Of a stretch of 64,000 bases of DNA, positions 4,201 to 31,911 are shown one piece after another. The position numbers and the translations under genes are program-made. The notes under the pieces were generated by a model. It searched no databases and was not told the DNA's origin. It saw nothing but the letters and a program-made list of their open reading frames with translations. Position 1 is the stretch's first letter. Every line of letters begins with the position of its first letter. This DNA is from Salsipaludibacter albus (GTDB lineage Bacteria; Actinomycetota; Nitriliruptoria; Nitriliruptorales; Nitriliruptoraceae): positions 62,001-126,000 of the forward strand of contig NZ_JAHOPH010000003.1 in assembly GCF_019798055.1 (NCBI RefSeq), in the 5' to 3' direction.

Positions 4201-4211
4201 GGAGACTCCTG

Positions 4212-10313: not shown

Positions 10314-11569
10314 GGGCCGGGGCGGGGGCGCATCGGGTGTCGACGGCGCATCTGCAGGCGGCGTATCCGTTCGTGTCCGAAGGCGGCCTCGGCGGCGAGG
10401 GCGTCTACATCGGCCGCGAAGTCCTCGGTGGGGCGTTCTGCTACGACCCCTGGGTGCTATACCGACGCGGGGTGTTGACGAATCCGAACATGCTGGTCGC
10501 CGGCCAAGTCGGCCGCGGCAAGTCGTCGTTCGTCAAGACCTACCTGTGGCGCCAACAGGTCTTCGGCCGCCGCGCCTGGATCATCGACCCCAAAGGCGAA
10601 TACGGCCCCCTCGCTGCGGCCTGCGGAATCGATCCGATCCGCATCGGGCCAGGCTTGCCCGTCCGCCTGAACCCGCTCGCACCCACTGCCGAGACCGTCG
10701 ACCGCGCCGCCGTCGACCGCGCCGCCGTCGACCGCCGGCGGATCTCGCTGCTCACGTCGCTCGCCGCCTCCTCGCTCGGGCGCACACTTCAGCCCGAGGA
10801 ACAGACCGCGGTCGAGCTCGCGGTTACCACCGCAGCCGGCACACACGGCGACGAGCTGGTGTTGCCGCAGGTTGTGGATGCGTTGTTGTGGCCCGACGAC
10901 GACACCGCCGCCCAGGTCGCCTCCGACGCCGACGCGTTTGCCCAGGCCGGCCGTCAGGTCGCCCTCGAGCTGCGGCGGCTGTGTCAGGGCGACCTGGCCG
11001 GGATGTTCGACGGCCCCACCACGGCCGGGATCGACCTCGACGCCCCCGTGGTGGTGTTGGACCTGTCGGCGTTGTATGGGTCGGACGCGCTCGGGCTGTT
11101 GATGCTGTGCGCGACCGCATGGCTGCAAGCCTCCCTCCAGGCACACGATCACGAGGACCGGCTGATCTTGGTGATCGACGAGGCCTGGGCGATCCTGCGC
11201 CACCTCGAGATCGCCCGCTGGCTGCAAGCCTCCTGGAAACTGTCGCGGCAGTATGGGGTGGCAAACATCGCCGTCGTCCACCGCCTGTCCGACCTCACCG
11301 CCGCCGGCGCGCACGGCTCTGAACAGGTCGCCCTCGCCCAAGGCCTGCTCGCCGACTCCGAGACCCGCGTCGTCTACGGCCAATCCCCGGCCGAAACCGA
11401 CCGCGCTACCGATCTGCTCGGCCTGACCGACGTCGAGGCCGACATCCTGTCCGAACTGGGCCGCGGCGTCGGCCTGTGGCGGGTCGGCGCCCGCTCCTTC
11501 CTCGTCGAACACGTCCTCGGGCACACCACCGAGCGGGTGATCGTCGACACCGACGCCAGAATGGGTTGA
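10310..11569 (+). CDS. VirB4-like transfer ATPase
   Basis: A 419-residue P-loop ATPase with Walker A GQVGRGKSS (65-73) and Walker B LILVIDEAW (285-293), plus the IIDPKGEYGPLA segment typical of VirB4/HerA-type conjugation ATPases. It is about half the length of VirB4 of Gram-negative systems. The missing N-terminal half is probably supplied by the preceding SCO6880-family protein, whose stop overlaps this GTG start (GTGA). An exact 15-bp tandem duplication at about 10699-10733 gives AVDRAAVDRAAVDRR at residues 129-143, in a loop away from the catalytic motifs. It would energise channel assembly or substrate transfer at the cytoplasmic face. Confidence 0.85.
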   Translation: MRAGAGAHRVSTAHLQAAYPFVSEGGLGGEGVYIGREVLGGAFCYDPWVLYRRGVLTNPNMLVAGQVGRGKSSFVKTYLWRQQVFGRRAWIIDPKGEYGPLAAACGIDPIRIGPGLPVRLNPLAPTAETVDRAAVDRAAVDRRRISLLTSLAASSLGRTLQPEEQTAVELAVTTAAGTHGDELVLPQVVDALLWPDDDTAAQVASDADAFAQAGRQVALELRRLCQGDLAGMFDGPTTAGIDLDAPVVVLDLSALYGSDALGLLMLCATAWLQASLQAHDHEDRLILVIDEAWAILRHLEIARWLQASWKLSRQYGVANIAVVHRLSDLTAAGAHGSEQVALAQGLLADSETRVVYGQSPAETDRATDLLGLTDVEADILSELGRGVGLWRVGARSFLVEHVLGHTTERVIVDTDARMG

Positions 11570-11572
11570 CGG

Positions 11573-13234
11573 ATGGCCACTTCGACCGCGCCCACGTCCC
11601 GGCCGCCGAAGCCCGGGCGGATGTCCCCGCTCGAACTGGTCGTTCTCTCGACCCTTGGTGTAGTGGTCGGCGCCACCGCACTCGTGTGGACCACCGCGCA
11701 AGTGTCTGCGAAGGTCTGGTTGGGGGAGTCGCCGCAACTGGGGCTTGTCGACACCGTCCCCGTCCTGCTCGCTCTGGTCGACAGTCCCGGTGATCCGGCC
11801 GCGGCGTTCCCATCTGAAACCGCCGTACTCGTTCCCGGACCTGTTCCGTTCTGGACCACCCTCGCACTGCTGCTCCTCGTCCCACTGGCGGTGGCGATCG
11901 TGTTCCTTCAGTGGCGCATCCGCCGCCGACCCCCCGAAGTCGACACGTCGGCCCGGTGGGCCACCACCAAGGACCTCAAGCCACTCATCGTCAAGAGGCC
12001 CACCCCGGGCAGGCTCACCCTCGGCACCGCCCACGGCAGGTTGTTGGCGGCCGAGCCGGGCCACTCCCTGATCGTCATGGGACCCACCCAGTCCGGCAAG
12101 ACCTCCGGCCTGGCCATTCCTGCCATCCTCGAATGGGACGGCCCCGTCCTCGCGACCTCGGTCAAGACTGACCTGCTCGACGACACGATCACCACTCGCC
12201 TCGACCGCGGCGATGTGTGGATCTACGACCCCACGGACACGGTCGCCGACTTCCCATCTGCTACGTGGTCCGCTCTGGCCGAATCGACAACCTGGCAGGG
12301 CGCGCTGCGAACCGCGACCTGGCTCACCGACGCCGCGCGCGACGGCGGCTTCCACGATGCCGACTTCTGGTACGCCAACGCCGCCAAACTCCTCGCTCCC
12401 ATGTTGTACGCGGCAGCCACCTCCGGCCGCACCATGACCGACGTCGTCCGGTGGGTCGACGTGCAGGAACAGCCCGAGGTCGACCTTGAACTCGAGGTCG
12501 CCGGGAACCCCGACGCCATCGCCGCGTTCGCCGCCTCAACCGGCCGCGAGGACCGTGCCCGCTCGTCCGTCTACACCACCGCAGAAACCATCCTCCGAGC
12601 CTTCGCCGACCCCGCCGTCGCACGCTCCTCGACGACCAGCGAGATCGACCCGGCCCGGCTTCTCGACGGCGGCAGCCACACCCTGTACGTGTCCGCACCC
12701 ATCCACGAACAGGCCCGGCTCCGACCGCTGTTCACCGCCCTCATCCAGTCCGTGCTCACCGCGGCCTACGACCGCGCCGCCGGTCGTAGTCGGCTCGACC
12801 CGCCCCTGCTGGTCGTGCTCGACGAAGCCGCCAACATCGCCCCCCTTCCCGACCTCGCCCAACTCGCCTCGACCGCCGCCGGACTGGGCATCCAGCTGGT
12901 GACGGTGTGGCAGGACCGCGCCCAGATCGCCCACCGCTACGGCGCTTCAGCCGCCACCGTGGTCAACAACCACCGCGCCAAGCTCGTCCTCGGCGGCGTG
13001 GCAGACACCGCCACCACCGGCGACGTCGCCCAACTGGTCGGTGAGACCGACGTGGCCCGACACTCCACGAGCACCGATGCCGACGGCCGAGTAACAGCCA
13101 CTGAGGCGACACAGACACAGCTGCTTGCGTCGGCCTCGATGATCCGCACCATGCGACCCTTCGAGGGCCTGCTGGTGTACGGAAGCTTGCCGCCCGCCCG
13201 CCTGCGACTGCGGCCCTGGTTCGAGGGCCGATGA
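11573..13234 (+). CDS. VirD4/TraG-type coupling protein
   Basis: A 553-residue type IV coupling protein. Two transmembrane helices (about 20-42 and 93-113) precede the hexameric ATPase domain, with Walker A GPTQSGKTS (170-178) and Walker B LLVVLDEAANI near residue 405. A TraG/TraD-like region containing LGIQLVTVWQDRAQI follows. It would recruit the relaxase-DNA complex and pump DNA into the channel. Start ATG lies 3 bp after the ATPase stop, so it closes the transfer operon. Downstream the element switches to cargo (a restriction enzyme). Confidence 0.9.
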   Translation: MATSTAPTSRPPKPGRMSPLELVVLSTLGVVVGATALVWTTAQVSAKVWLGESPQLGLVDTVPVLLALVDSPGDPAAAFPSETAVLVPGPVPFWTTLALLLLVPLAVAIVFLQWRIRRRPPEVDTSARWATTKDLKPLIVKRPTPGRLTLGTAHGRLLAAEPGHSLIVMGPTQSGKTSGLAIPAILEWDGPVLATSVKTDLLDDTITTRLDRGDVWIYDPTDTVADFPSATWSALAESTTWQGALRTATWLTDAARDGGFHDADFWYANAAKLLAPMLYAAATSGRTMTDVVRWVDVQEQPEVDLELEVAGNPDAIAAFAASTGREDRARSSVYTTAETILRAFADPAVARSSTTSEIDPARLLDGGSHTLYVSAPIHEQARLRPLFTALIQSVLTAAYDRAAGRSRLDPPLLVVLDEAANIAPLPDLAQLASTAAGLGIQLVTVWQDRAQIAHRYGASAATVVNNHRAKLVLGGVADTATTGDVAQLVGETDVARHSTSTDADGRVTATEATQTQLLASASMIRTMRPFEGLLVYGSLPPARLRLRPWFEGR

Positions 13235-13432
13235 GCACTCGGCTCGCGTCTGGGCCGACTCGGAGAAGGGCTTGCCGACACCTGGCGGCTTCTTCCCTGA
13301 TGACGTCACGCCACTGCTCAGCGAGCAGTGACGGGTGCACCAGGGACTCGCCTCACCGTCGACCATCGGTCGCCTCGGGCTTCTATCGGACTCTACGCTT
13401 CCGGCCTAAGACGACCGTGGGAAGATCTAGAC

Positions 13433-16400
13433 TTGGGTGTCTCTGCAGTTCTTGACCAGATCCGGGCGACGGCCACCAGCGAGTACGACAAAGGCGCTGC
13501 CTTCGAGCGGATGATGGCCTCGGCCTTTCGACTTGATCGGACATACCGAGAGCGCTTCGAGAAGGTCTGGTTGTGGGCGGACTGGCCCGACCGCCCGGGG
13601 TTAGATCTGGGCATCGATCTCGTGGCGAGGACCAGTGACGGTGGACTGATCGCGATCCAGTGCAAGTTCTACGCAGCAGAGCACCAAATCACCAAGTCTG
13701 ACATCGACAGCTTCTTCACCGAGAGCGGTCGACAACACCTCATAGACGGTGTCCTGCGCGGTTTCGACGAGCGCATCATCGTCGCGACTAGCGACCAGTG
13801 GTCGACCAACGCTGAAGGGTCACTCGACAACCAGACCATCCCTGTTATCCGTATCGGGGTTGACGAACTCGACCAGATGACCATCGACTGGGATGCGTTC
13901 GATCCTGGCAGCCCGTCGGATCTCGTTCCAACAGCGCGCCACGAGTTGCGGCCGCACCAGACAACGGCCGTCGACAAAGTCCGGTCGGGCTTCTCGTCTT
14001 CGGACCGCGGGCAGCTCGTGATGGCTTGCGGCACTGGAAAGACGTTCACGAGCCTGCGAATTGCCGAAGAACATGCCGGTAAGGGGGCGACGGTGCTATT
14101 TCTGGCTCCGTCGATCGCGCTGATATCCCAGACTCTGAAGGAGTGGACGGCCCAGACGAAGACCCCGATCCGTCCCTTCGCGATCTGCTCGGACACCACG
14201 GCCGGCAGACCGGTGGAGGGCGAGCTCGGCACGCCCTATGACCTGGCGGTTCCACCGACCACAGACGCGGCCGCACTTCAACAAGCCACCGCGCACACAC
14301 CTCGAGACGACGCCATGACGGTGATCTTCTCGACGTACCAATCCATCGCCGTCGCCGCAGACCTGCAAGCTGCGACCGGCCTCACCTTCGACCTGGTGGT
14401 GTGCGACGAGGCTCACCGCACTGCCGGTACCACCGAGGCTGGCGAGGACGCGACCGCGTTCGTCACAGTGCATGACAACGAGCTGATCCCAGCAGCCAAG
14501 CGGTTGTACATGACCGCCACGCCGAGGGTCTACAAGCCGGCAGCCAAGACCGACGCGACCGAACACGACGTGATCGTGGCGTCCATGGACGACCCGGAGG
14601 TGTTCGGTCCGGAGTTCCACCGGCTCGGGTTCGGCCAAGCCGTCTCGCTCGGGCTGCTAGCTGACTACCGAGTCCTCATCATGACGGTCGGTGAGGACGC
14701 GATCAGCGAGTCCTTCCAAGACCTGCTCTCGACCGACGGGAATCTGAATCTGCCGGACGTCGCCAAGATCGTGGGCTGCCTGGCCGGGCTCGGGAAGCGT
14801 CGTGGCGTCGGCGCAGGGGCGTTCAGCGGCCTAGACGAGCCGATGCGCCGTGCCGTGGCGTTCTGGTCCACCATCGCAGAGTCGCAGCAGTTCGCGGAAC
14901 AGTTCGACCTGGTCGCCGAACGCTACGTGGAGATGCAGGAGGAGGAGGGCCGCGAAGTCATCGACCTGCGCGTGCCAACGCGGCACGTCGACGGCACCAC
15001 CAATATCCGTGCGCGACGCTCCGACATCCGATGGCTCAAAGGCGACCCGGCCGACGACGAGTGCCGCGTGCTCACCAACGCCAAGTGCCTGACCGAGGGC
15101 GTCGACGTCCCGGCGCTGGACGCCGTCATGTTCCTCAAACCCAAACGATCCACGGTCGACATCGTCCAGGCCGTCGGCCGCGTGATGCGCAAACCGCCGG
15201 GCAAGCAGATGGGCTACATCATCCTGCCCGTTGTAGTCCCGACCGGCCAGTCTGCCGAGACCGTGCTGGAGTCCAACACCGACTACGACGTCGTCTGGTC
15301 GGTGCTCCAAGCCCTCCGCAGCCACGACGAGCGGTTCAACAGCTACATCAACCGCATCCAGTACCTGTCGGACTCCCCCTCGGAAGACCCGGACAACCCG
15401 ATCCAGATCGTTGACGTCGACGCCGACCTCGGCACGGACGATGACAGCGCGAGCCAGCTCACCTTCGGTGGATTCTCGTGGCAGGACTGGACAGCAGCGA
15501 TTTACACCCGAATCGTCAAGAAGGTCGGCACCCGCGGCTACTGGGAGGACTGGGCAGCCGACGTCGCCGACATCGCACGTCGACACCACCAACGAATCCT
15601 CGACATCCTCAACCAACAGCCCGAGGCCAACGAAGCCTTCGCAGGATTCCTGGCCGGACTGCGCGTCAACCTCAACGGCGACATCTCACAGGACGACGCC
15701 ATCGCCATGCTGTCGCAGCACCTCATTACCGCGCCCATCTTCGAAGCACTGTTCGACTCCAGCAGCTTCGCTCTAACCAACCCGGTCTCGCAGGCCATGG
15801 CTGAGATCACGTCGGTCCTCGACCAGTACAGCCTCGACACCGAGACCGCGTCGCTGGATCGCTTCTACGACTCCGTGCGGCAGCGCGTCGAAGGGATCCC
15901 GCCTCAAGACGGCGCGGCCCGCCAACGCATCATCAAGGATCTCTACGGACGCTTCTTCGCCAACGCCTTCCCCGAGACCGCCAAGTCACTGGGCATCGTC
16001 TACACGCCAATTGAGATCGTCGACTTCATCCTCCGAGCCGCCGAAGCCGTCCTCGCCGAACACTTCGACGGCGCATCCATGTCCGACGAGGGCGTTCATG
16101 TTCTCGACCCGTTCACCGGAACCGGGACGTTCCTCGCCCGTCTGCTCCGATCAGGCATCATTCAGCCCAGCGACCTGGCCCGAAAGTTTGCGAACGAGCT
16201 CCACGCCAACGAAATCCTGCTGCTGGCCTACTACATCGCCGCCGTCAACATCGAGACGACCTACCAGCAGATCGTGGACTCCGAGGAGTACACACCGTTC
16301 CCCGGCGTCGTCCTGACCGACACCTTCGCCATGGCCGAAGGCAACGTCGCCCTCACGCTCGACGTCTTCCCGATCAACAGCGACCGCGCACAGAAGCAAC

Positions 16401-18274
16401 GCGAACTCGACATCCGCGTCATCGTCGGCAACCCCCCTTACTCGGCGACCGGCAACCTCGCCTACCCGGCCCTAGACAAACTGATCGCCGACACCTACGT
16501 CGCCAAGTCGGCCGGCACTCGGTTCGGCTCGGTCTACGACGCCTACATCCGAGCCATCAGATGGGCCTCACAGCGCGTGCTCGACTCGACTCTGGGGGGC
16601 GTGGTGGCCTTCGTCACCAACGGCGGCTTCATCGACTCCAACGTCATGGACGGGCTGCGTCTGACCCTTGCCGACGAGTTCCACCACGTCTACGTCTACA
16701 ACCTGCGCGGCAACCAACGCACTGCTGGCGAGCTATCACGAAAGGAGGGTGGAAAGGTCTTCGGCAGCGGCAGTCGCAACACCGTGGCCATCACCCTCCT
16801 GGTCTCGCTTCCGGGAGACCCTCCACCGGACGGCGCCCAGATCCACTACATCGACATCGGCGACTACCTAAGCAGAACAGACAAGCTTCGCATCTTGGAC
16901 AACAATCTCCGGCCTCAGGGCGCTGCCCAGGCAAAGCTGGCCGACCTCCCGTGGACACCCATCGAACCCAACGCCTATGGCGACTGGATCAACCAGCGGT
17001 CAGCGAAATTCGAGGACTTAGTCCCGCTTCACGACGACGATGAAGGTTCGATATTCGCGATCAGGTCACACGGCCTGAAGTCGAATCGAGACGCCTGGAA
17101 CTACAACTCCTCCGAGCAGGGAGTCAGGACGAACGTCGAGCGCATGCTCGCTCACTACAACGACCAGGTCACGGCATTCGCTCAAGCGCACCCAAACCTC
17201 ACCGGAACGCAGTCGAAGCGCGCGAAGATCGCGAAAGCGACGGTCGATCGAGACCCCACCAAGTTCAGTTGGGACCGAGCTGACTACAAGCGCCTCGTGG
17301 ACGGCCAGACCTACAGCATGGACGACGCCGTGCTGCAGCCGGCCATGTACAGACCGTTCGTTTCAAGACACGCAAACTCAGGTCGGCTGCTGAACAACAC
17401 CGTCTACAAGCAGCCGCGGATCTTCCCGTCCGCAGAGACGGCCAATCTAGCGATCGGGGTGCTGGAACCCGGGGGGAGCGCTCCCTTTACGGCCCTCATG
17501 GTCGATCGGCTCCCCGACGACAAGCTGGCTGGCGCTGGCAACGCCATGCAGTTCCTGCCCCGCTGGATCTATCCCGACAGGGATGTCGCCTCGACCGACC
17601 AGACCGAACCGGGCAGCCGTCGAGACGGGGTGACCAACCACGCCCACGAGCTGTTCCAAGTAGCCGATCCCGACATCACCAAGGACGACATCTTCTTCAT
17701 CGTGTACGCCATCCTCCACCACCCGCAATACCGCGACACCTTCGCCAACGACGTCGCTAGATCACTGGCACGAATCCCCGTCCCCGACAAGCCCACCACA
17801 CTTCGCGCTCTTGGCGAGGCGGGACGCCAGCTCGCGTCGCTGCATGTCAGTTACGACGACGTGCAACCCTGGCCCAAGCTCACCATCGACCGAAGAGACG
17901 ACTTCGATCAAGCCAACCGCGACCACCTGCGCATCACGAAGATGCGCTATGCCAAGAAGCCCAACCCGAGCGACCCAGGCGGCCGAAAGATCGATGACAA
18001 GTCGGTGCTCGTCTACAACCCGTGGATCACCATCCGCGGCATCCCCGAGCGCGCCCATCATTACCGGTTGGGGTCACGCTCCGCGCTGGACTGGGTCGTT
18101 GATCAGCAGCGAGTCAGGACATACACGAAGTCCGGCATCACAAACGACCCGAACGACTCGGCTGACGAGCACGACGACCCTAGCTATCTGCTGAACCTGA
18201 TCGGTCGAGTCGTCACCGTGTCAATGCAGACACTCGACGTCATCGAGGGTCTCCCAGACCTGGAGATGGAGTAG
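13433..18274 (+). CDS. Type ISP single-polypeptide restriction-modification enzyme
   Basis: One chain of about 1,610 residues carrying all restriction-modification functions in Type ISP (LlaGI/LlaBIII-like) order. First comes an Mrr-like PD-(D/E)xK nuclease (GLDLGIDLVA...AIQCKFY, around 13595-13670). Then a superfamily 2 helicase (Walker A ACGTGKT at about 14025, DEAH at about 14406, VQAVGRVMRKP at about 15170). Then a gamma-type adenine methyltransferase (DPFTGTGTF at about 16108, NPPYSA at about 16431), and last a C-terminal target-recognition region. It should translocate on DNA, cut unmethylated sites and methylate one strand. I favour the TTG at 13433 (GGAAG eight bases upstream, and homologous N-termini start near LDQIRATATSEYDKG); a GTG at 13328 would add 35 unusual residues. 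Lower GC than the flanking transfer genes suggests separately acquired cargo. Confidence 0.9.
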   Translation: MGVSAVLDQIRATATSEYDKGAAFERMMASAFRLDRTYRERFEKVWLWADWPDRPGLDLGIDLVARTSDGGLIAIQCKFYAAEHQITKSDIDSFFTESGRQHLIDGVLRGFDERIIVATSDQWSTNAEGSLDNQTIPVIRIGVDELDQMTIDWDAFDPGSPSDLVPTARHELRPHQTTAVDKVRSGFSSSDRGQLVMACGTGKTFTSLRIAEEHAGKGATVLFLAPSIALISQTLKEWTAQTKTPIRPFAICSDTTAGRPVEGELGTPYDLAVPPTTDAAALQQATAHTPRDDAMTVIFSTYQSIAVAADLQAATGLTFDLVVCDEAHRTAGTTEAGEDATAFVTVHDNELIPAAKRLYMTATPRVYKPAAKTDATEHDVIVASMDDPEVFGPEFHRLGFGQAVSLGLLADYRVLIMTVGEDAISESFQDLLSTDGNLNLPDVAKIVGCLAGLGKRRGVGAGAFSGLDEPMRRAVAFWSTIAESQQFAEQFDLVAERYVEMQEEEGREVIDLRVPTRHVDGTTNIRARRSDIRWLKGDPADDECRVLTNAKCLTEGVDVPALDAVMFLKPKRSTVDIVQAVGRVMRKPPGKQMGYIILPVVVPTGQSAETVLESNTDYDVVWSVLQALRSHDERFNSYINRIQYLSDSPSEDPDNPIQIVDVDADLGTDDDSASQLTFGGFSWQDWTAAIYTRIVKKVGTRGYWEDWAADVADIARRHHQRILDILNQQPEANEAFAGFLAGLRVNLNGDISQDDAIAMLSQHLITAPIFEALFDSSSFALTNPVSQAMAEITSVLDQYSLDTETASLDRFYDSVRQRVEGIPPQDGAARQRIIKDLYGRFFANAFPETAKSLGIVYTPIEIVDFILRAAEAVLAEHFDGASMSDEGVHVLDPFTGTGTFLARLLRSGIIQPSDLARKFANELHANEILLLAYYIAAVNIETTYQQIVDSEEYTPFPGVVLTDTFAMAEGNVALTLDVFPINSDRAQKQRELDIRVIVGNPPYSATGNLAYPALDKLIADTYVAKSAGTRFGSVYDAYIRAIRWASQRVLDSTLGGVVAFVTNGGFIDSNVMDGLRLTLADEFHHVYVYNLRGNQRTAGELSRKEGGKVFGSGSRNTVAITLLVSLPGDPPPDGAQIHYIDIGDYLSRTDKLRILDNNLRPQGAAQAKLADLPWTPIEPNAYGDWINQRSAKFEDLVPLHDDDEGSIFAIRSHGLKSNRDAWNYNSSEQGVRTNVERMLAHYNDQVTAFAQAHPNLTGTQSKRAKIAKATVDRDPTKFSWDRADYKRLVDGQTYSMDDAVLQPAMYRPFVSRHANSGRLLNNTVYKQPRIFPSAETANLAIGVLEPGGSAPFTALMVDRLPDDKLAGAGNAMQFLPRWIYPDRDVASTDQTEPGSRRDGVTNHAHELFQVADPDITKDDIFFIVYAILHHPQYRDTFANDVARSLARIPVPDKPTTLRALGEAGRQLASLHVSYDDVQPWPKLTIDRRDDFDQANRDHLRITKMRYAKKPNPSDPGGRKIDDKSVLVYNPWITIRGIPERAHHYRLGSRSALDWVVDQQRVRTYTKSGITNDPNDSADEHDDPSYLLNLIGRVVTVSMQTLDVIEGLPDLEME

Positions 18275-18517: not shown

Positions 18518-19630
18518 TCAGTCTCCGACCAACCTCAGGTGCCGTTCGCCGGATTTGGAAGTGGCCGCTCGGGGAGGGATGTCCCCGCCCACCGGAGTCA
18601 AGGCCAGCCCAAATACAACTTTGTCCAGTTCGGCGACGGGAATCTGCAGGGTTTCGGCCACATGCGTACGTCCCAGTTGCTCGTCAGCTAGAGAACCGAA
18701 GACCTTGAGCAGCACCTGTGATGACTCGCGTTGCATGCCGTTGGGCTCGGTTTTCCTAAACCCCTGCTCGCTCAATTCGATGTAGACAGATCGGTACTGC
18801 CAGTCACTCAGCAGACCAAGGTCGTGCATTCTGTAGGCAAGCGCAGCAGCTGAAACACCCCAGCGCCGCTTGTCCTGAATGAGGTGCGACAGTCGAGCCC
18901 CCGCGCGAGCCTCTGCCAAGACACTGCCACGGGGCATCAGGAATGCCGATCCAAACCGCTTTGCCTCTGTCTCAGCGGCCCGACCCCTAGGCCGGTCATG
19001 CCCCCAGTGCAGGACCAGATGACCCAGCTCGTGGGCGGCATCCATGCGGCTTCGCTCTGCAGTCTTGAGCGTGTTCAAGAAGACGTAGGGCAATCCATCG
19101 CTGTTCCAGAACGAGTAAGCATCAATTTCAGCGCACTCGTCAGCCAACGAAAAGACCCGTGTGCCATGGGCCTCGAGGAGATGAATCATGTTCGACACGG
19201 GACGCTGACCTAGGCCCCACTCCTGACGGACCGCCTCAGCCGCTGTCTCGGGATCGACCCCGGTGAGCTTTGGCACATCGATGCTTGGAAGTACGAACTG
19301 GTCATCGATCCAGGTTGCCAGGGAACTCGCGTACCAGGCTGAGGCGAACGCTTGCTTCTGCTGTCGCGCCGTAAGGGTTGAGAGGGCACGAAAGCTTGCG
19401 GCAGCCAACCGAGGTTCGGGAAGGTCCGGTCCGGTGAAGTAACTCTCCGGAAAACCCAACGCTTCTGCGAGCCTCCGCACGGTCTCGCTGCTGGGTTCCT
19501 GGTCGGCGTTGTCACTCTCGTAGGCGGACAGGCTCCGTGTCGAGACGCCGGCGGCCTCTGCGAGCGCACGCTTCGTCATCCCTCGCCTCTCGCGGGCGAG
19601 AGCCAGGCGGATTGGACTGAACCTCGGCAA
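18518..19630 (-). CDS. XRE-family regulator with ImmA/IrrE metallopeptidase domain
   Basis: 370 residues. An N-terminal helix-turn-helix of the XRE/Cro type covers about 6-60 (TKRALAEAAGVSTRSLSAYE). The ImmA/IrrE-type zinc peptidase domain has HELGH at 200-204 with downstream acidic residues. A C-terminal domain of about 90 residues follows. In ICEBs1 and Deinococcus, ImmA/IrrE proteases cleave repressors; fused XRE-ImmA proteins are usually autoregulators of mobile-element or toxin modules. It lies 33 bp after the 234-residue gene in the same direction, so they form an operon. A perfect 6-bp palindrome in the upstream promoter is a plausible operator. It could control element activation or be the antidote part of a two-gene module. 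Confidence 0.85.
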   Translation of the reverse strand: MPRFSPIRLALARERRGMTKRALAEAAGVSTRSLSAYESDNADQEPSSETVRRLAEALGFPESYFTGPDLPEPRLAAASFRALSTLTARQQKQAFASAWYASSLATWIDDQFVLPSIDVPKLTGVDPETAAEAVRQEWGLGQRPVSNMIHLLEAHGTRVFSLADECAEIDAYSFWNSDGLPYVFLNTLKTAERSRMDAAHELGHLVLHWGHDRPRGRAAETEAKRFGSAFLMPRGSVLAEARAGARLSHLIQDKRRWGVSAAALAYRMHDLGLLSDWQYRSVYIELSEQGFRKTEPNGMQRESSQVLLKVFGSLADEQLGRTHVAETLQIPVAELDKVVFGLALTPVGGDIPPRAATSKSGERHLRLVGD

Positions 19631-21816: not shown

Positions 21817-24800
21817 TCAGGCTCGGCGACGGGCGGGGAGGTCGCGCACGGGTGTTGGGTCGTGGACGTCACGGTCCGGCTGACGGTGGGCGTCGGGGAG
21901 TTGCGACGCGATCGCGTCGTGGGCACGTCGTTGGGTCAGGTCGGATGGCCGGGGGCCGAGAGGGGTTCGTGGGTCGTCGATGCCCCAGGTGGTGCGGTAG
22001 TGCTCGATCGCGGTGACGAGGGCGGTCCACCCGTTGCGCTCGGCCGGCGTGTCCGGGCGCGGCCCAAATGTGCTGGTCAGGTGGTCGGAGAGTTCGTGGC
22101 CAGCAGCGACTGATCGGAGGTGGGCACGGCGGCCGAGCTCCTGGTCGACGTCCTCGAAGGCCTCCAAGAGGTCCGATAGCTCGTGTGAGGACTCCGGGTG
22201 GGCGAGTCCGCTTGCGACCTCTGCGAGGTGCCGCTCGGTCATCTCCAGTGCCGCCTGGACCCGCGCGGTCTCGTCGGGGTTGGGCCGGCGCCGCCAGCGG
22301 CTTGGCGGCTTGGCCTCGAGCGCGTCGAGCTGCTGGGCCAGTTCGTCCACTCGGGCCGTGAGCTCGTGGTGGCGGGCCTCGACTTGGTCGTGGTTCGGTG
22401 TCGGCTCGGTCCGGGCGGCTTGGAGTAGCCGAGTGCGCAGTTGGTCGTGCACGGCCTGCAGGTCGTGGTCGTCGCGGCCTGTGAAGTCCTGGCCGGTGTG
22501 GTCGAGCGCAAGGTGTTGGCCTTGGGAGCGACGTAGCCGGGCGGCCAACCTCCGGGCTGCGTCACCCGTAGCCCCGAGGACGGTGTCGTGGCCGGCTGGG
22601 TCCGGGATCGGGTCGGCGACGATGTAGAGGTGGTTTTGGTGGCGGCCGCGGGACAGGGCGACGTAGCCCCACTCGCGGTACATCGCGTCGGAGCCGAGGA
22701 TCCAGGTGGCGTCGGTGGTGAGGCCTTGGGCCTTGTGGCCGGTGATGGCGTAGGCGTGGTCGACGTGCCCGGCGTCGAGGTAGCTGGCCGGCAAATCGAC
22801 GGGCCGGTTGCCGACGTCGATTCGGATGGTCAGGGTGCGGGCCGCTTCGTCAACGCTCTCGACTTTCCCGCGGGTGCCGTTGACGACGTCGAGGCGGCGG
22901 TCGTTGCGCAGGCACACGATCCGGTCGCCGGCCTGAAACGTGCTGCCCCCGACGTCGAGCTCGGGGCCGGTGAGTTCGCCGTCGGCGGCCATCCGAGTCC
23001 GGGCGCGGGTGTTGAGGTCGTCGACGTCGGTCCGGCGCAGGGCGACCATGACGCCGTCGAGGTCGTGTTCGGTGCGGGCGTGCCACCAGTCGGACACGAG
23101 TTGTTCGCGGGCGGCGTCGACGGTCTCGCCGATGTGGATGCGGCCGGCGGCGTGGTAGGCGGACAGTCCGGTGGTGGGGTCGCCGTTGCGGAGGTGGTCG
23201 AGGGCGTCGCGTTCCCAGCCGGCGGACTGGCGGCGGTTGTCGGACAGCTCGATCACGTGCAGTCGGTTGGCGAGTCCGCGGAGGAGCCCGCCCGCGTCGA
23301 TCTCGGGCAGCTGGTAGGGATCGCCGACGAGGACGACCTTGGCGTTGGCCGTGGCGGCGGCGTCGAGGAGGCGGGCGAGCTTGCGGGTGCCGACCATCCC
23401 AGCCTCATCCACCACCAGGACACTGTTCGGTGCGAGCCCGCCGTGGTGGGGGTGTTCGACGTCGGCGAGGAGCCGGTCGATGGTGTAGCTGTCGATCCCG
23501 GCGCCGGTTTCGAGCTCGAGGGCGGCGCGGGCGGCCAGAGCGGTGCCGATGACGCGCCGTCCGGAGGCGTGCCAGGCGGCGCGGGCGGCGTCGAGGGCGT
23601 AGGTCTTGCCGGCGCCGGCCTTGCCGATCACGACCTCGATCCCGGCTCCGGATCCGGTGAGGCGGCGGACCATGGCGGCCTGTTCGCCGGCGATGGACGG
23701 TCGGTCGGCCAGCACCCGATCCACCGTTGCGTCGTCGACGATCGCGACGCCGGCGCTGATGCGGGTTGTGGACTGGTGGACGAGGCGTTGTTCGAGGGCG
23801 AGCAGGTCGGGGGTGGAGTAGCGGGTGTCGTCCGGCAGGGCCGCCACTGCGGTGCCGTCGGGTCGGCGGATCACGTCGCGCGACGACAGCAGCTGCACCG
23901 TGCCGTCGGGCTGGTCCAGCGCCACGACGCCGCCCGCCTCGTCGTCCAGCAGCACGTCGGCAAGGCGCTCGACACGGCCGATGGGGGAGCCGTCGGGAAG
24001 CTGTTGGCACCAGGCCCGCAGGACGTCTCGCCGGGTGAACGTCGAGGCACGAGCCGTCAACCCGTCCGGTCCGAGCAGCTCGTCTGCGACGCCGGCCAGT
24101 CGGTCGCCGGCGACCGGCTCGAGGACCCGGCTGTGGACGATGGCGGAGAGCTCGGCGGGGTCGAACCCGAGCTGAGTGGCCTGGTCCGCCCAGCGGTCGC
24201 GGAGGGTGGCCTGGTCGGGGAGGTCGGCCTTCGATTCGCGGGTCTCGAGTGTGGCGATCTGGGCGGCGCGGGCAGAGGTCTCTCCGCGTCGTTCCATGAG
24301 GTCGAGGATCTCGGCGCGGCGCTGGGAGAACGCCTCGATCACCTCGCGGGGCACGCCGGTCAGATCCGCGGTGCCGTTGGTGACTGGGGTCCAGGCGACG
24401 CCGAGGGTGCGGGTGAGGTGGTCGCGGAGGTGGGCTTGGTAGAGGTAGCCGGCGGTCTTGGCATGGGCATACAGACGTCGTGAATCGACGGTGCGCCACT
24501 GGCCGTCGTCGGCGGCCTGGGCGAGGTTGGCGACCAGGACGTGGGTGTGCAGCAGCGGGTCCCCGGCCCGGGAGGTGCGGTGCATGAACGCCGCAGCAAC
24601 TGCCCCCGTGGTCGGGACCCGTTCGGCGCCGCCGCGGCCGCGGCGGGTCCAGACGGCTTCGCGTTCGAGGTAGCCCACCGCGGCTTCGATTGCGTCGTCG
24701 TGGGCTTGGCGGACCTGGTCGGCGACGTCGTCGTCGCCGAGCCCATACAACAGGGACACCGACTTCGGAGCACGGAAGGTCAGGTCGAACCCGGGCACGG

Positions 24801-25032
24801 TCCGCTGCCGCTGCGCCAACAGCGGCGCATCATCAGCCGGGTCTCGGCCACCCAGCACGGTCCGCAGTTGCTCCGGCGTCACACGTCCTGACAGGCCGAG
24901 GGTGTCGGCGCCGCCGCCGAGCCAGCGGCCGGGGAGCTCGCCGTGGCCGAAGTAGTACTCCTCCACGCCGTCGGCGACCGTGGCGAGGTAGTAGTCCTCG
25001 CCGCCGGGGGCCATGCGACCGATGTTCAGCAT
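21817..25032 (-). CDS. MobF-family relaxase-helicase (TraA/TrwC type)
   Basis: 1,071 residues. The relaxase domain (1-300) has N-terminal tyrosines (DYYLATV, then EEYYFGH) and the three-histidine metal site in MHRTSRAGDPLLHTHVLVAN (about 151, 162, 164). A RecD-like superfamily 1 helicase follows, with Walker A GKAGAGKT (about 470-477) and DEAG (about 542-545), and later AYAITGHKAQGLT and EWGYVALSRGR. The tail (about 830-1071) is helical and charged. It would nick oriT, attach covalently to the strand and unwind DNA for transfer. The ATG at 25032 overlaps the upstream TGA (TGATG); a GTG at 25035 is the alternative. No oriT is obvious from inspection. Confidence 0.92.
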   Translation of the reverse strand: MLNIGRMAPGGEDYYLATVADGVEEYYFGHGELPGRWLGGGADTLGLSGRVTPEQLRTVLGGRDPADDAPLLAQRQRTVPGFDLTFRAPKSVSLLYGLGDDDVADQVRQAHDDAIEAAVGYLEREAVWTRRGRGGAERVPTTGAVAAAFMHRTSRAGDPLLHTHVLVANLAQAADDGQWRTVDSRRLYAHAKTAGYLYQAHLRDHLTRTLGVAWTPVTNGTADLTGVPREVIEAFSQRRAEILDLMERRGETSARAAQIATLETRESKADLPDQATLRDRWADQATQLGFDPAELSAIVHSRVLEPVAGDRLAGVADELLGPDGLTARASTFTRRDVLRAWCQQLPDGSPIGRVERLADVLLDDEAGGVVALDQPDGTVQLLSSRDVIRRPDGTAVAALPDDTRYSTPDLLALEQRLVHQSTTRISAGVAIVDDATVDRVLADRPSIAGEQAAMVRRLTGSGAGIEVVIGKAGAGKTYALDAARAAWHASGRRVIGTALAARAALELETGAGIDSYTIDRLLADVEHPHHGGLAPNSVLVVDEAGMVGTRKLARLLDAAATANAKVVLVGDPYQLPEIDAGGLLRGLANRLHVIELSDNRRQSAGWERDALDHLRNGDPTTGLSAYHAAGRIHIGETVDAAREQLVSDWWHARTEHDLDGVMVALRRTDVDDLNTRARTRMAADGELTGPELDVGGSTFQAGDRIVCLRNDRRLDVVNGTRGKVESVDEAARTLTIRIDVGNRPVDLPASYLDAGHVDHAYAITGHKAQGLTTDATWILGSDAMYREWGYVALSRGRHQNHLYIVADPIPDPAGHDTVLGATGDAARRLAARLRRSQGQHLALDHTGQDFTGRDDHDLQAVHDQLRTRLLQAARTEPTPNHDQVEARHHELTARVDELAQQLDALEAKPPSRWRRRPNPDETARVQAALEMTERHLAEVASGLAHPESSHELSDLLEAFEDVDQELGRRAHLRSVAAGHELSDHLTSTFGPRPDTPAERNGWTALVTAIEHYRTTWGIDDPRTPLGPRPSDLTQRRAHDAIASQLPDAHRQPDRDVHDPTPVRDLPARRRA

Positions 25033-25823
25033 CACCGATCACCCCCGCCGGAGGCGTCACCGGAGCCGTCACGGCGGGGGTGTGCATCCCCCGGTGCCAG
25101 TCTGTGTGGTTGCTTCTGGAGGTCGGACGGAACGTCCGTGTAGTGGTCCTCGTAGTTGGGGGTCTGCGTGGTCACTGGGGTGACCTCGCTGTGGAGCTCC
25201 TCGAGGTGTTGGAGCTCTGGTGGGTCGTCGTCGAGGACGACGATCTCGGTGTTGATGTGGGTGGTGCATCGTTGGCCTGGCTCCTCGACGTGTTGGCTGC
25301 AGATGCATCGGGGTGTCCACACTTGCGTGGCGGTCGGGTCGGTCAGCAGGTCGAGGTGACGTCCGGGCTGGCAGTACACGCACTTGCACGCGACGTCGTC
25401 GACCAGGCGTGTCCGGTAGGCGTTGGGGCAGCCGACGGCCCGGCGGCGAGCCGCGTCGGCTTCGCGACGCTCACGGGCCCGGCGGTTGGCCTCGGCCAGC
25501 GACACCAGGGTGCGTTCGTGCTCGGGGTCGATGTAGCTGCTGAGCAGGTTCGGCTTGCCGGCCGGGGCGGTCCCGGTGTTCGCGCCGGCGAACGCCACCC
25601 GCTGTTGCGCGACCAGCTCGCCGTGCGTGCCCGGTGTCCCCGCGACCGCGGAGGCCTCGACCACGACGCCCAGCCGTGCGGTGGCGGCCGCGACCCGCTC
25701 GGCGACCCGGCGGGCGCGCCGGTGTGCGGTCTCGACCCGGGTGCCGCCGGCGACGGTGTAGGTGACCGCGACGGTGTAGGTCGCGGCGTTGCGGAACTCA
25801 TCGGTCTCGTGGGGCGCGGTCAT
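25032..25823 (-). CDS. Cys-rich accessory protein of the mobilisation operon
   Basis: 263 residues, function unknown. The N-terminal part has repeated strands (TYTVAVTYTVAGG) and an Arg/Ala-rich helix at about 110-130. The centre holds a cysteine cluster that could bind zinc: CKCVYC near 146-151, then CICSQH and a further Cys and His (about 173-190). The tail is acidic, then Gly/Asp-rich. It overlaps the gene before it by ATGA and the relaxase gene by TGATG, so it is made together with both. A DNA-binding or relaxosome accessory role is plausible from position and the possible zinc site, but I recognise no family. Confidence 0.65.
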   Translation of the reverse strand: MTAPHETDEFRNAATYTVAVTYTVAGGTRVETAHRRARRVAERVAAATARLGVVVEASAVAGTPGTHGELVAQQRVAFAGANTGTAPAGKPNLLSSYIDPEHERTLVSLAEANRRARERREADAARRRAVGCPNAYRTRLVDDVACKCVYCQPGRHLDLLTDPTATQVWTPRCICSQHVEEPGQRCTTHINTEIVVLDDDPPELQHLEELHSEVTPVTTQTPNYEDHYTDVPSDLQKQPHRLAPGDAHPRRDGSGDASGGGDR

Positions 25824-27771: not shown

Positions 27772-28029
27772 GGCGCGACCGCGGCTCGAGCTCTCTCCGG
27801 AGGTCGGTCCCGACCCGGTGGCCAGGCCAGTCGAGGCAGGTCTCCGAAACGTCGATCGCCTGACTGGGGGTCAGACGATTCGGGCCGTTCTGGGTACACG
27901 AGAGGTACACGCGAGAGGCTGGATTCGGCATGCAGGCACCGGCGTCGCCTGACTTTCTGCGACGAGTTTTCCCTGCTCAGCGGCATGTTCCGACCCGGCC
28001 CACCGGGTGCCGCAACGGCCCTGTTCCGA
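27772..28029. other. Left arm of the attachment region and upstream region of the initiator operon
   Basis: No gene of its own is apparent. It must hold the promoter of the leftward replication-mobilisation operon, though no strong hexamers are evident. Two GGTACACG repeats lie at 27893-27900 and 27904-27911, exactly one helical turn apart. A leftward frame from the integrase remnant stays open across this stretch and ends overlapping the initiator ATG at 27771. Confidence 0.5.
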
Positions 28030-28071
28030 CTACGGATCAGGCGGCCGGGGGTTCGAATCCCTCCCAGCGCG
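28030..28071 (+). tRNA. 3' half of tRNA-Arg(ACG), attachment core; gene incomplete
   Basis: The sequence runs from a CTACGGA anticodon loop (anticodon ACG) through TCAGG, a variable loop, a T-arm GGGGG-TTCGAAT-CCCTC, and an acceptor strand CCAGCGC plus discriminator G; CCA is not encoded. The 5' half (D-arm and matching GCGCTGG acceptor strand) is absent upstream, where unrelated sequence begins close to the anticodon stem. Partial tRNA 3' ends of this kind are typical integration cores of tyrosine-integrase elements. It is not a functional tRNA gene as it stands. Confidence 0.8.
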
Positions 28072-28076
28072 CAACG

Positions 28077-28103
28077 CGAATCCGGCCCCCGGGGCCGGAT
28101 TCG
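28077..28103 (+). terminator. Strong hairpin after the tRNA-Arg fragment
   Basis: CGAATCCGGCCCC (28077-28089) and GGGGCCGGATTCG (28091-28103) are perfectly complementary around one central base, so about 11 pairs can form with a short loop, followed by CCGTTTCGGG. It directly follows the tRNA 3' end and could be the native tRNA terminator. The U-tract is weak. Confidence 0.55.
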
Positions 28104-28310
28104 CCGTTTCGGGCTTCGGGCCCGTTGCCGTCGAAGACGCCGGGTACGCCTCGGGTCACGACTGCGGGATCTCGGGCCGCTCCCGGGTACACGAATCCGC
28201 CCGATGGGTACACATTTCGCGGCAGGTCGACCGGGGCATGGGGCCGGGTCGTCGATGTTCAGGAGCGTCCGTCTGGGGGTGGAGTCGGTGTCTTCCGGGG
28301 GTGCAGGTGC

Positions 28311-28520
28311 CGGGGGCTCACGGTGGGCCCGGAGGACTCGTGCGACGTGCTGTGCTGCCTTGGCCTGCATGCCCGGGAGGACGTGGCTGTAGACGTCGAG
28401 CGTGAACGCGGTCGAGTGGTGACCGAGCCGCTCGGAGACGATCTTGGGGTTCACGCCTGCCTGCAGCCACAGGGTCGCCGTTGTGTGCCGGAGATCGTGG
28501 AGGCGACAGAGTCGACCGGG
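28311..28520 (-). pseudogene. C-terminal remnant of a tyrosine integrase
   Basis: Leftward frame encoding the catalytic end of a phage-type tyrosine recombinase: LHDLRHTTATLWLQAG (catalytic Arg-His), VSERLGHHS (second His) and LDVYSHVLPGM (the nucleophilic Tyr within VYSH). Everything upstream of CRLHDLRH is missing; the frame runs into unrelated sequence at about 28510-28525, next to the 3' end of a lacI pseudogene. The frame has no stop after the recombinase part and stays open through the tRNA core to 27768, where it meets the initiator start codon. Without its N-terminal two-thirds it cannot be an active integrase. Confidence 0.8.
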
Positions 28521-28560: not shown

Positions 28561-29438
28561 TCAGGGCGTGCTGGGCGGTGGCTCGTGCGAGGCGCGCAGG
28601 ACCGGGCGGCACGGCGCGCGGTGGACGGGTTCAGGATCACCCGTTCCGTCCAGGAGGTCCAGCAGCCGCAGGACCGCCCATCGGCCCATGGCCTCGTCGC
28701 GCAGCGCCATGGTCGTGAGGGGCGGATCCATCCCCTCGGCCAGGGCCTCCTGGTCGTCGAACCCGACGATGGAGATGTCGCCGGGGATGGTCAGTCCGCG
28801 TGCCCGGATGGCCTGGTAGGCCCCGCTGGCGATGCGATCGTTGAAGCAGAACACGGCCGTCGGAGGATTTGTCGAGGTCGAGCAACCGACCCACGGCCGT
28901 GCGCCCGCCGACCGGGGTGATCGGGTCGTCGGTGTACACGACCAGGTCGGGGTCCGGCTCTAGTCCGACTTCGGCGAGCGCCCGGTGGTAGCCCTCCAGG
29001 CGCAGCGTCGCTGCGGGGACGTCGTGGTCGTCGTTGATGAACCCGATCCGGCGGTGGCCGGCGGCGGTCAGCAGGGCAGTGGCGTCATGGCCCCCGACCT
29101 CGTCGTCCGGGACGATCGCGGACACCCGACGGTGCGGGTCCCACGCATCGAGCAGCACGACCGGGGTGTCGGACAGGTCGGGTGTCGTCTGTTGCCCGGT
29201 GGAACAACGCTCCGAAGACCAGGCCGTCGACGCGGCGGTCGCGGAGTGCCTCGACCGCGTCCACCTCCCGTTCGGGGTCACCCTCGGTGTTGGCCACCAG
29301 CAGCATCTACCCGCGCTCCTGCTTGGCGACCGAGCGGACGCGCCGCTGGGTGTCCTCGGCGAGCCTCGTCTCCCTGTTGTCGAGCATCAGGGAGACAGTG
29401 GTCTTGGAGACACCCGCGACCCGTGCCACGTCCGCCAT
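28561..29438 (-). pseudogene. LacI-family sugar regulator, inactivated by one nonsense and two frameshift mutations
   Basis: The pieces of a LacI/GalR repressor lie in order on the minus strand. First is the helix-turn-helix MADVARVAGVSKTTVSLML from the ATG at 29438, ending at an in-frame TAG at 29307. Next is VANTEGDPEREVDAVEALRD in the same frame, then a frameshift near 29190-29210 into PVVLLDAWDPHRRVSAIVPDD...GHRRIGFIND. A second shift near 28865 leads into AVFCFNDRIASGAYQAIRARG...IVGFDDQE, down to the TGA at 28561. Three independent lesions make sequencing error unlikely. It neighbours a fructoside-type hydrolase and a permease remnant, so it once controlled a sugar operon. Confidence 0.85.
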
Positions 29439-29511
29439 GGTGACCCGTTGCCCCGCAGAGGCGGGATCCGTTCTGAAGGCGTCGTGGGCCCCTGTCGACG
29501 ACGTCCCTCCG

Positions 29512-30447
29512 TCAGGCAAGGTAGGAGGCCAGCGGGGTGGGGTCGGTGAGCGTGAGGTGATCCGGTCCTGGTCGGTTGACGAAGCCAAGCACCTGCAGCA
29601 CGCCGTCGCGGTCCCGCACGACCTTGTTGCTGTACGTCCCCGGAAGGCCCAGTGGCCGCATGTCGGTGAGGTCGACCGGGCCCAGCGGTCCGCCCATCGG
29701 GACGACGAAGCTGCCGCTGGTGACGTCCGGGCTGCGCCGATCGGGGCGAAGGACGTCCGGGTCGTAGCTGAACACGAGCGCGTGCCGACCCTTGGACTCC
29801 GGCGCGAGGTCCACGACCTGGGGGACCTCGAGGTGGCCAAGGCCGGAGGCGGCCGTCAGGGGAGCGCCCACCTCCCACCGGACGAGGTCGCGGGAGTGGG
29901 CACGCCCGATCACGCCGGCTCCGGTCGTGGGGCCATCGGGCACCCGGGCGGTGATCAGTGCATGGAAGCCGTCATCGTCCGGGTCGACCATGACCCAGGG
30001 ATCGCGCCACGCGAGGTCGTGCCACCGCGTGTCGTCGGACAGTTCGTACCAGCGCGAGTCCGCCTCGATGACGGGGTTGTCCGGATGCCTGGTCCAGGTG
30101 GCGAGGTCCGGCGAGGTCGCGAGCCCGATCCGTTGGACCAACCCGTCCTCGGCACGGCTGCAGGCCGTGTAGAGCATGGCCCAGCCGCCCCGGGGATCGG
30201 CGACCACCGACCCGGTCCACAGCGCGAGGTCGTCCCAGTTACCGGGCGCGGCCGGGACGAGCACATCGCCGTGGGGTGTCCAGGTGTGGAGGTCGTGCGA
30301 CGTGGCGTGGGCGATGGCGGCGTTGAAGTGGCGCAGGTCCGGATCGCCCAGCGAACGCGGCGCCCGCAGGTGGAACAGGTGGTAGGTGTCGCCGTCGTCG
30401 GCGAGCCAGAAGTCCCAGATCCAGTGGTCGTCGAGCCGGAACGTCAC
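29512..30447 (-). CDS. Glycoside hydrolase, GH32/GH68-like five-bladed propeller
   Basis: A 311-residue protein without signal peptide. It starts VTFRLDDHWIWDFWLADDGD and continues TYHLFHLRAPRSLGDPDLRH. These are features of beta-fructosidase/levansucrase-type five-bladed propellers, with the DFW acid near the N-terminus as likely nucleophile and a WRDPWVM segment matching the RDP motif. I chose the GTG at 30447; no in-frame ATG exists, and the longer frame runs into a permease remnant. It sits between that remnant and a dead lacI gene, so its induction and sugar supply are probably compromised. The substrate is probably a fructoside, but that is unproven. Confidence 0.75.
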   Translation of the reverse strand: MTFRLDDHWIWDFWLADDGDTYHLFHLRAPRSLGDPDLRHFNAAIAHATSHDLHTWTPHGDVLVPAAPGNWDDLALWTGSVVADPRGGWAMLYTACSRAEDGLVQRIGLATSPDLATWTRHPDNPVIEADSRWYELSDDTRWHDLAWRDPWVMVDPDDDGFHALITARVPDGPTTGAGVIGRAHSRDLVRWEVGAPLTAASGLGHLEVPQVVDLAPESKGRHALVFSYDPDVLRPDRRSPDVTSGSFVVPMGGPLGPVDLTDMRPLGLPGTYSNKVVRDRDGVLQVLGFVNRPGPDHLTLTDPTPLASYLA

Positions 30448-30488
30448 GTCGTGACCCCAGCCGCTCGATGCATCGTCGGTTCCATTCG

Positions 30489-30611
30489 TCAGCCCTTGAC
30501 GCCCGAGGATGCCACGCCCTGGACGAAATAGCGCTGGCCCAGGAGGATGGTGAGCAACGTGAACGACGAGACGAACATGTAGACCGCGAACTTCCGAGAC
30601 CGGCTGCTCAT
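30489..30611 (-). pseudogene. C-terminal remnant of a MalG-type sugar ABC permease
   Basis: A 40-codon leftward frame ends in FTLLTILLGQRYFVQGVASS followed by GVKG and a stop. This is the characteristic C-terminus of MalG/carbohydrate ABC permeases (QRYFVQG...G-VKG). The rest of the permease is missing: upstream lies only a non-homologous gap before the divergent beta-lactamase-like gene. It shows that a sugar ABC transporter once preceded the glycoside hydrolase gene. Confidence 0.75.
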
Positions 30612-30666
30612 CTACGTTTCGGCTGGCGATCACGAGAGTGCGCGCATCGAGAATGGATCGGGTGGC

Positions 30667-31911
30667 ATGGACAGCGTGATCGCGGACGAGCTGGGTTCCG
30701 TCGTCGCCGAGGGCGAGCTGACGGGTGCCGTCACGATCCTCTGGCAGGACGGCCGCGTCGTGGACGCGTCGACCGTCGGCTGGCAGGACGCGGTCGGTGG
30801 AGAGGCCATGCGCCGGGACACGCTGTTCCGCATCGCGTCGATGACCAAGCCGATCACCTCGACCGTGGCACTGATGCTGCACGAGGAGGGCCGCTTCGCA
30901 CTGGACGACCCCATCACCCAGTGGGCGCCAGAGATGACGAACCTGCGCGTGCTCCAGGGCGGCACGGGTTCACCCGCGGATGCTGTCGCGGCGCGGCGGG
31001 ACATCACGTTCGGTGACCTGCTGACCCATCGTTCCGGGATCACCTACGCCGAGTTCCAGCACGGGACGTTCGCCGAGGACTACGCGGCCGCACTGGGCAG
31101 GCACATCGACAACGAGCTCACGCCAGACGAGTGGGTCGAGCGGCTGGGCGGCCTGCCGCTGGTCGACCAGCCGGGCAGCAACTTCCACTACGGGCACTCC
31201 ACCGACCTGCTTGGGTTCCTGGTCGCGCGGATGGAGGACGCGCCGCTCGCGGACGTGTTCGACCGACGGCTGCTGGATGCACTCGGGATGACCGACACCG
31301 GCTTCACCCTCACCGCGGAGCAGGAGACGCGACGTGCAGCCGACCACGGCTTCGACGACGATGGCCACCCGGTCGTGCTGGACGAGGTCCCCAACGGTCA
31401 CGCGCTTGCCCGCCGTCCACCCGGGCTGACCTGGGTCTCCGGCGGGCAGGGCCTGTGGTCCACCGCCGACGACTTCCTGACCTTCGCCCGCATGTTCGTC
31501 GGGGACGGCGCGGTGGACGGCGTCCGGCTCCTGCGACCGGACACGCTGGCGCTGATGACCTCCAACCACCTCACCGAGCACCAGCGCGCCATGGCCGAGA
31601 TGCTGGGCAGGCACCTCTTCTCGACGGGTCACGGCTACGGACTGGGCGTCGCGGTCGTCACCGACCCCGAGCGCGCGGATCCCACCGTGTGCGGGGGCGG
31701 GGTCGGCGCCGTCGGGTGGCCCGGCGCCTACGGAAGTTGGTGGCAGGCGGATCCCGACGACCGCTCCGTCATGGTCCTGCTGACCCACAACATGGTCACC
31801 CTCGACCAGCTGTCACAGGGCGTCGGCTTCGGCGCCTGGGACGCGATCACGCGATTCCAGTCGGTCGGATCCGCCATGCTCGCCGCCCAGGGCGGACAGG
31901 GAGGATCCTGA
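30667..31911 (+). CDS. Serine beta-lactamase/esterase-like hydrolase (class C fold)
   Basis: A 414-residue cytoplasmic protein (no signal peptide) of the beta-lactamase-related serine hydrolase family. The SxxK motif is SMTK (58-61), a YGHS motif near residue 175 stands at the Tyr-x-Asn position, and PGLTWVSGGQGLWSTADDF is typical of the EstB/class C-like group. Such proteins are more often esterases or peptidases than true beta-lactamases. A strong hairpin follows 40 bp after the stop. The gene is divergent from the decayed sugar operon; I see no operon partners. Confidence 0.85.
   Translation: MDSVIADELGSVVAEGELTGAVTILWQDGRVVDASTVGWQDAVGGEAMRRDTLFRIASMTKPITSTVALMLHEEGRFALDDPITQWAPEMTNLRVLQGGTGSPADAVAARRDITFGDLLTHRSGITYAEFQHGTFAEDYAAALGRHIDNELTPDEWVERLGGLPLVDQPGSNFHYGHSTDLLGFLVARMEDAPLADVFDRRLLDALGMTDTGFTLTAEQETRRAADHGFDDDGHPVVLDEVPNGHALARRPPGLTWVSGGQGLWSTADDFLTFARMFVGDGAVDGVRLLRPDTLALMTSNHLTEHQRAMAEMLGRHLFSTGHGYGLGVAVVTDPERADPTVCGGGVGAVGWPGAYGSWWQADPDDRSVMVLLTHNMVTLDQLSQGVGFGAWDAITRFQSVGSAMLAAQGGQGGS

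Follow-up and report, generated by a model that had tools for sequence, protein, structure and literature searches.

The tRNA-Arg(ACG) attachment site described here is very probably a chimeric internal attachment site produced by tandem accretion, in which an older related element would have been followed by a second integration via the same core and by later deletion of the old element. The site lies in a window of 64,000 nucleotides from Salsipaludibacter albus, corresponding to positions 62001-126000 of contig C23 in a 4.25-Mb genome of 79 contigs (G000); coordinates without a prefix refer to this window. Two different arms meet at its core: the P' arm of the resident element lies to the left, and to the right lies a diverged P arm with the integrase end of a second element. 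Site-specific tandem accretion of this kind, followed by decay, is ordinary, and the stacking of mobile elements is already known; the site would record how one tRNA gene was invaded twice in succession by conjugative elements that are close relatives.

The core (28028-28073, plus strand) matches the intact tRNA-Arg(ACG) exactly over 46 bp, which extend from its anticodon loop to its 3' end. The initial annotation had placed a tRNA-Arg(ACG) 3' half, as a 42-bp core, at 28030-28071; this half is indeed present, but slightly longer than proposed. No tRNA was found in the window by ARAGORN. To the left of the core lies the right arm of the element, or P' side (27893-27910, plus strand), with two GGTACAC sites that are 11 bp apart and located 135 and 124 bp ahead of the start of the core. 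A P'-side motif follows (27967-27989, plus strand), and from this motif to the core the flank resembles that of the sister element in G001, the single other genome of the genus in the comparison; a pattern search gives only this one P'-side motif at tRNA-Arg and no second. To the right, the core is followed by a terminator-like hairpin with 14-bp perfect arms (28076-28104, plus strand), which is part of another copy of the left end of the element, and by four plus-strand arm sites. Two of these four have decayed according to the alignment, reading GGTACGC and GGTCAC (28143-28159) in place of the GGTACAC present at the intact left end and in G001, and the other two, GGTACACG and GGTACACA, which are 21 bp apart (28186-28213), appear as intact arm sites of the older element. 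The GGTACAC repeats are found exactly where they had been reported (27893, 27904, 28186 and 28207), with spacings of 11 and 21 bp that amount to about one and two helical turns, as had been claimed.

Over the window as a whole, GGTACAC is not enriched, with 6 copies against a mean of 3.62 in shuffled sequences and at least 6 copies in 15 of 100 shuffles. Its copies are nevertheless clustered: of the ten present in 90 kb of the contig, eight are no more than 190 bp away from a tRNA-Arg core, four of them right of the intact tRNA and four around the window core, and two lie elsewhere. A rough Poisson estimate for a stretch of 200 bp gives a probability of about 6e-5 for at least two copies and 7e-10 for at least four. 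Out of 48 core places in loci from 29 of the 35 genomes of the family, the window site is the only one with GGTACAC in the same orientation on both sides of the core.

The left side of the site belongs to an element of 40.3 kb, the right 28 kb of which occupy positions 1-28027 of the window, the left 12.3 kb (C23:49700-62000) lying outside it. The element is bounded by two identical 46-bp direct-repeat cores at C23:49700 and C23:90028, which are 40,328 bp apart. Both a relaxase and a coupling protein are encoded between these cores, and an integrase and a probable excisionase adjoin one att site (attL). The relaxase is a MOBF-type relaxase-helicase, TrwC (21817-25035, minus strand; Pfam TrwC 5e-87, AAA_30 3e-56), and the coupling protein is a type IV coupling protein of the TraG/TrwB family (11573-13234, plus strand; Pfam T4SS-DNA_transf 7e-38, TraG-D_C 1e-22). 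With regard to mating-pair genes, the two identified are a candidate VirB4/TraC-like ATPase (9827-11569, plus strand; Pfam AAA_10 3.7e-8, with a weaker TraG P-loop match) and a transglycosylase-like protein (3139-4239). By this gene set, the resident is predicted to be a T4SS-type integrative conjugative element. It also carries defence-type cargo (13328-18274 and 18518-19630 in the window; L009:16008-18834), including a UvrD-like helicase with DUF2290 and a type ISP restriction-modification enzyme, just past which, on the opposite strand, lies an HTH-IrrE protein (PADLOC RmrA). A protein of 1294 aa encoded inside the element (L010:989-4873) has a weak NACHT match and no PADLOC match.

An intact tRNA-Arg(ACG), immediately preceded by a tRNA-Ser, lies 12.3 kb left of the window (C23:49669-49744, equivalent to L009 13670-13745). 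A whole-genome search with the 701-bp site returned only one other strong match, at C23:49700-50183, with 89% identity. The order to the right of the intact tRNA is a hairpin resembling that of the window (L009 13746-13781), four GGTACAC sites at +117, +128, +161 and +182 from the core start, an integrase gene and an HTH_17 gene. The integrase is an intact tyrosine integrase of 423 aa, oriented towards the tRNA, with arm-binding, SAM-like and catalytic domains, and its start is overlapped by the stop of the gene for a 71-aa HTH_17 protein, the probable excisionase. The initial annotation had advised looking leftward for the other element end, where an intact tRNA-Arg(ACG), a second copy of the core and a full integrase gene are all found; a left junction free of GGTACAC repeats, which it had named as grounds for taking the right-hand repeats as coincidence, does not exist, the repeats being complete there. 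In the phage collection no record reached at least 60% identity, and the plasmid collection held five records at 60-80%, with none above 34% among the ten matches listed; the integrases in both collections were mostly distant.

This left junction bears on how the window site was formed. Of the readings offered initially, that of two elements in tandem with the right one mostly deleted is borne out by the intact tRNA, the full integrase and the GGTACAC array on the left, together with a right arm that is a diverged second copy. The initial annotation had also considered that a break in an element's integrase gene had been the point of integration, as only the C-terminus of an integrase adjoins the right arm; the resident element has a complete integrase at attL, so that a separate N-terminal half is not needed, and this route has next to no probability. 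An unrecombined attP, in which a circular or plasmid form would have been integrated or assembled by another route while keeping both native arms around one core, would account for the two arms that do flank one core here. Nevertheless, it is highly improbable, given that a proper attL with an intact tRNA is present elsewhere on the same contig and that the arms come from two different elements, the one on the right being a copy that is about 10% diverged from the resident's own attL arm and cut inside the integrase.

The second copy of the element left end, seen directly right of the window core, comprises the terminator, the arm and an integrase C-terminus, with 89.5% identity over 484 bp. 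The suggestion that only the catalytic C-terminus of a tyrosine integrase lies next to the right arm agrees with an open frame on the minus strand (28272-28511) that covers residues 340-419, lacks the N-terminal 339 residues and has 90% amino acid identity to the intact integrase (tblastn, 7.6e-34). We take this frame to be a remnant of the older element, cut at about codon 340 of the integrase. In its first 47 codons 9 differ from the intact gene, all synonymously, and over 76 codons 18 differ, of which 6 change the amino acid (dN 0.037, dS 0.233, dN/dS about 0.16). The pattern indicates two functional integrases that diverged, with truncation afterwards.

These substitutions also weigh against the right-hand copy being a duplicated attL of the present element that arose when copies of a single element in a tandem array recombined and that has drifted since then. 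Such a duplicate would belong to the same family and have the same layout, as the copy does at 89% identity, but the integrase differences are mostly synonymous (0 of 9 non-synonymous in the first 47 codons), a bias that a drifting stump would not show. Divergence this deep requires a separate functional history, and a duplicated attL is improbable. Because the differences are mainly synonymous, the stump appears to come from a separate, once functional related element. A whole-genome search gives two cores, both on C23, and thus, in the absence of a third core, the stump is not a complete cis-mobilizable element.

Homology to the integrase stops at 28506-28511, and directly past this broken end lies a decayed gene for a LacI-family regulator (28570-29510, minus strand), with tblastn matches in three frames, frameshifts and an internal stop. 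Next to it is a gene for a GH32-type glycosidase (29512-30882, minus strand; Pfam Glyco_hydro_32N), which belongs to neither element and is 79% identical to its G001 counterpart. In G001, contig C121 carries an intact LacI orthologue together with GH32 and a gene for a sugar transporter; a tRNA-Arg search of that genome gave no match on this contig. A native LacI gene at the tRNA flank is not supported, the LacI gene right of the tRNA in G024 being only 30% identical to the G001 orthologue. The most economical reading of the broken end is a deletion that started within the old integrase and reached the end of the LacI gene; the join at about 28507, where the integrase stump meets the LacI side, may also be a misassembly.

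Under tandem accretion, a close relative of the present element would first have occupied tRNA-Arg(ACG), and a second element with a nearly identical integrase would then have entered via the same tRNA core. On the left (attL), the new element would then have its integrase end beside the intact tRNA, and its right arm would be joined through the core to the old integrase end. A deletion would subsequently have removed the old element except for its first 480 bp or so, cutting its integrase at codon 340 or thereabouts and joining it to the decaying LacI gene. Both junctions, the intact integrase and the diverged second copy can be read off directly, as can the mostly synonymous divergence of the remnant and the two-core count; the order of the two integrations is inferred. 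The integrase presumably binds the GGTACAC sites, and the present element can probably still excise between attL and the chimeric site.

In G001, the left flank of the core resembles the P'-arm side of the window, with 84% identity over 147 bp including the core, and to its right no GGTACAC is found in the 260 bp compared, which run into other DNA; the G001 site is thus predicted to be a plain attR. Since the G001 P' arm, in the left flank of the core, contains no GGTACAC, the role of the 27893/27904 pair is read solely from its motif, spacing and place. The G001 integrase is more distant (76% amino acid identity), and four arm sites are located right of the G001 tRNA at distances identical to those at the intact left end. 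The 11-bp pair starts 73-74 bp past the core in three genomes (G000, G001 and G017) and 61 bp past it in G019, the motif being GGTACAC in G000 and G001 and GGTCAC in G017 and G019. A related integrase on contig C9 of the window genome is accompanied by TGATACAC twice at 11 bp (L011:4101-4260). Close to this arm lies the P'-side motif TTTCCCCTGCTGAGCGGCATGTT, which G000 has at two places alone, here and at the window site; the stretch between the TGATACAC sites of C9 and the P'-side motif showed no tRNA core. Spacing that stays almost constant while the motif changes is as expected of integrase arm sites, and suggests that arm-type sites may be recognisable as a pair 11 bp apart, lying a nearly fixed distance from the core, despite changes of motif.

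The chromosomal right flank of the window site differs from that of G001, which was not found in the window genome apart from a 183-bp piece on another contig. ORF-based blastp gave no shared right flank between the tRNA sites of relatives and the contig; a tblastx search with the same flanks returned only noise from high GC and was dropped.

Several known systems are similar to the arrangement proposed here. A route of decay followed by accretion has been described for ICEs and IMEs in the ICE-CIME model (PMC5704250), where a new element likewise lies beside a decayed one via a shared core at a gene 3' end, with a chimeric internal att site; unlike that case, the old element here is a stump without a distal att site and not a complete CIME. 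With regard to CIME features, the stump has neither a distal att site nor functional integrase or transfer genes, its integrase being reduced to residues 340-419. In Streptomyces, accretion of AICEs and defective AICEs at tRNA-Arg is reported in PMC9513070, with a shared target, several elements and a trace of an ancient one, although those elements use TraB and the resident here has a T4SS-type set with a TrwC relaxase and a coupling protein. Going solely by the nearest named relatives of the integrase, the host here would also seem to belong to a different actinobacterial class, Acidimicrobiia. Tandem AICEs are also described in Frankia and S. avermitilis, including Fean6303 with three direct repeats at tRNA-Arg (PMC3218068). 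These resemble the window site in their repeated tRNA 3' ends and in offering alternative left ends for one right end, but they are largely complete, and excision was shown for those of Frankia.

Beyond the genus, a search with the tRNA pair gave matches in 34 of the 35 genomes of the family, and many of these genomes have additional tRNA-Arg 3' halves, of which several stand in tandem on a single contig. Cassettes of 1.8-8 kb lie between tRNA-Arg(ACG) 3' halves in L055, L057, L058, L060-L062, L064-L069, L072 and L074. Out of the 48 core places, 43 were used for the comparison of solo cores (23) with full tRNAs (20), leaving out L091, L092 and L094, which have 4-7 mismatches, and L082 and L083, where the contig ends at the tRNA; a further core in G006, near L055 17433, is too diverged for the pattern. 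An TTCGCTCAGTT arm site was found 25-45 bp left of 14 of the 23 solo cores and of none of the 20 full tRNAs. In L078 and L081, TTCGCTCAGTT-like sites 29 bp apart are located right of tRNA-Arg, followed in L081 by ordinary-looking chromosomal genes.

The units often open with an ORF of 132-166 aa that resembles the N-terminal DNA-binding part of a tyrosine integrase and has no catalytic domain; Pfam detected Phage_int_M in two of the five short ones tested, the others being recognised by alignment only. A regular expression for the catalytic motif gave no integrase at the solo cores of other genera, and in G011 a full-length integrase of 362 aa (L090) occupies the same place as the fragments. 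The N-terminal pieces show dN/dS values of 0.37-0.68 in nine pairs with at least 50% amino acid identity, and several copies are frameshifted; given this weak constraint and the frameshifts, a conserved N-only integrase is not claimed. The window genome contains no cassette unit with such an N-terminal fragment.

Cassette stretches common to different genera reach 86-94% nucleotide identity in the closest cases, over 0.9-1.8 kb, and 70-85% in others, against 84-87% for rpoB in the six pairs measured. Identity as high as that of rpoB or above it points to recent transfer between genera. Integrase-defective cassettes appear to pass between genera at the tRNA-Arg hotspot, which, if they are moved in trans, would be a little-studied route of gene exchange. 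A broader possibility, which we regard as doubtful, is that the tRNA-Arg(ACG) 3' half serves as a family-wide cassette platform, in which full-length integrases would act in trans on units headed by an integrase fragment with the arm- and core-binding part, much as integron cassettes are moved, a tRNA half being the recombination site; the window junction would then be the conjugative-element version, with a chimeric site usable by later arrivals. Among the publications listed on genomic islands and tRNA in Acidimicrobiia and on Ilumatobacter integrases, none appears to report such cassettes, judging by their titles and the opening lines of their abstracts. The ssrA island arrays of Dehalococcoides (PMC3146451) are bounded by repeats of an RNA-gene 3' end, with about half of the islands devoid of an integration module; they resemble the family-wide tRNA-Arg cassettes as islands between such repeats and differ in using a serine recombinase and tmRNA, unlike the tyrosine integrase fragments and tRNA-Arg found here. 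A protein of 478-511 aa recurs in the cassettes (L055:10440-11876, L065:1113-2549, L066:17948-19423, L067:675-2210 and L076:3141-4652), with weak ATPase and MarR-like matches and, for the L055 copy, a PADLOC match to PDC-S27 (3e-12); the DNA of its gene is about 78-89% identical between genera.
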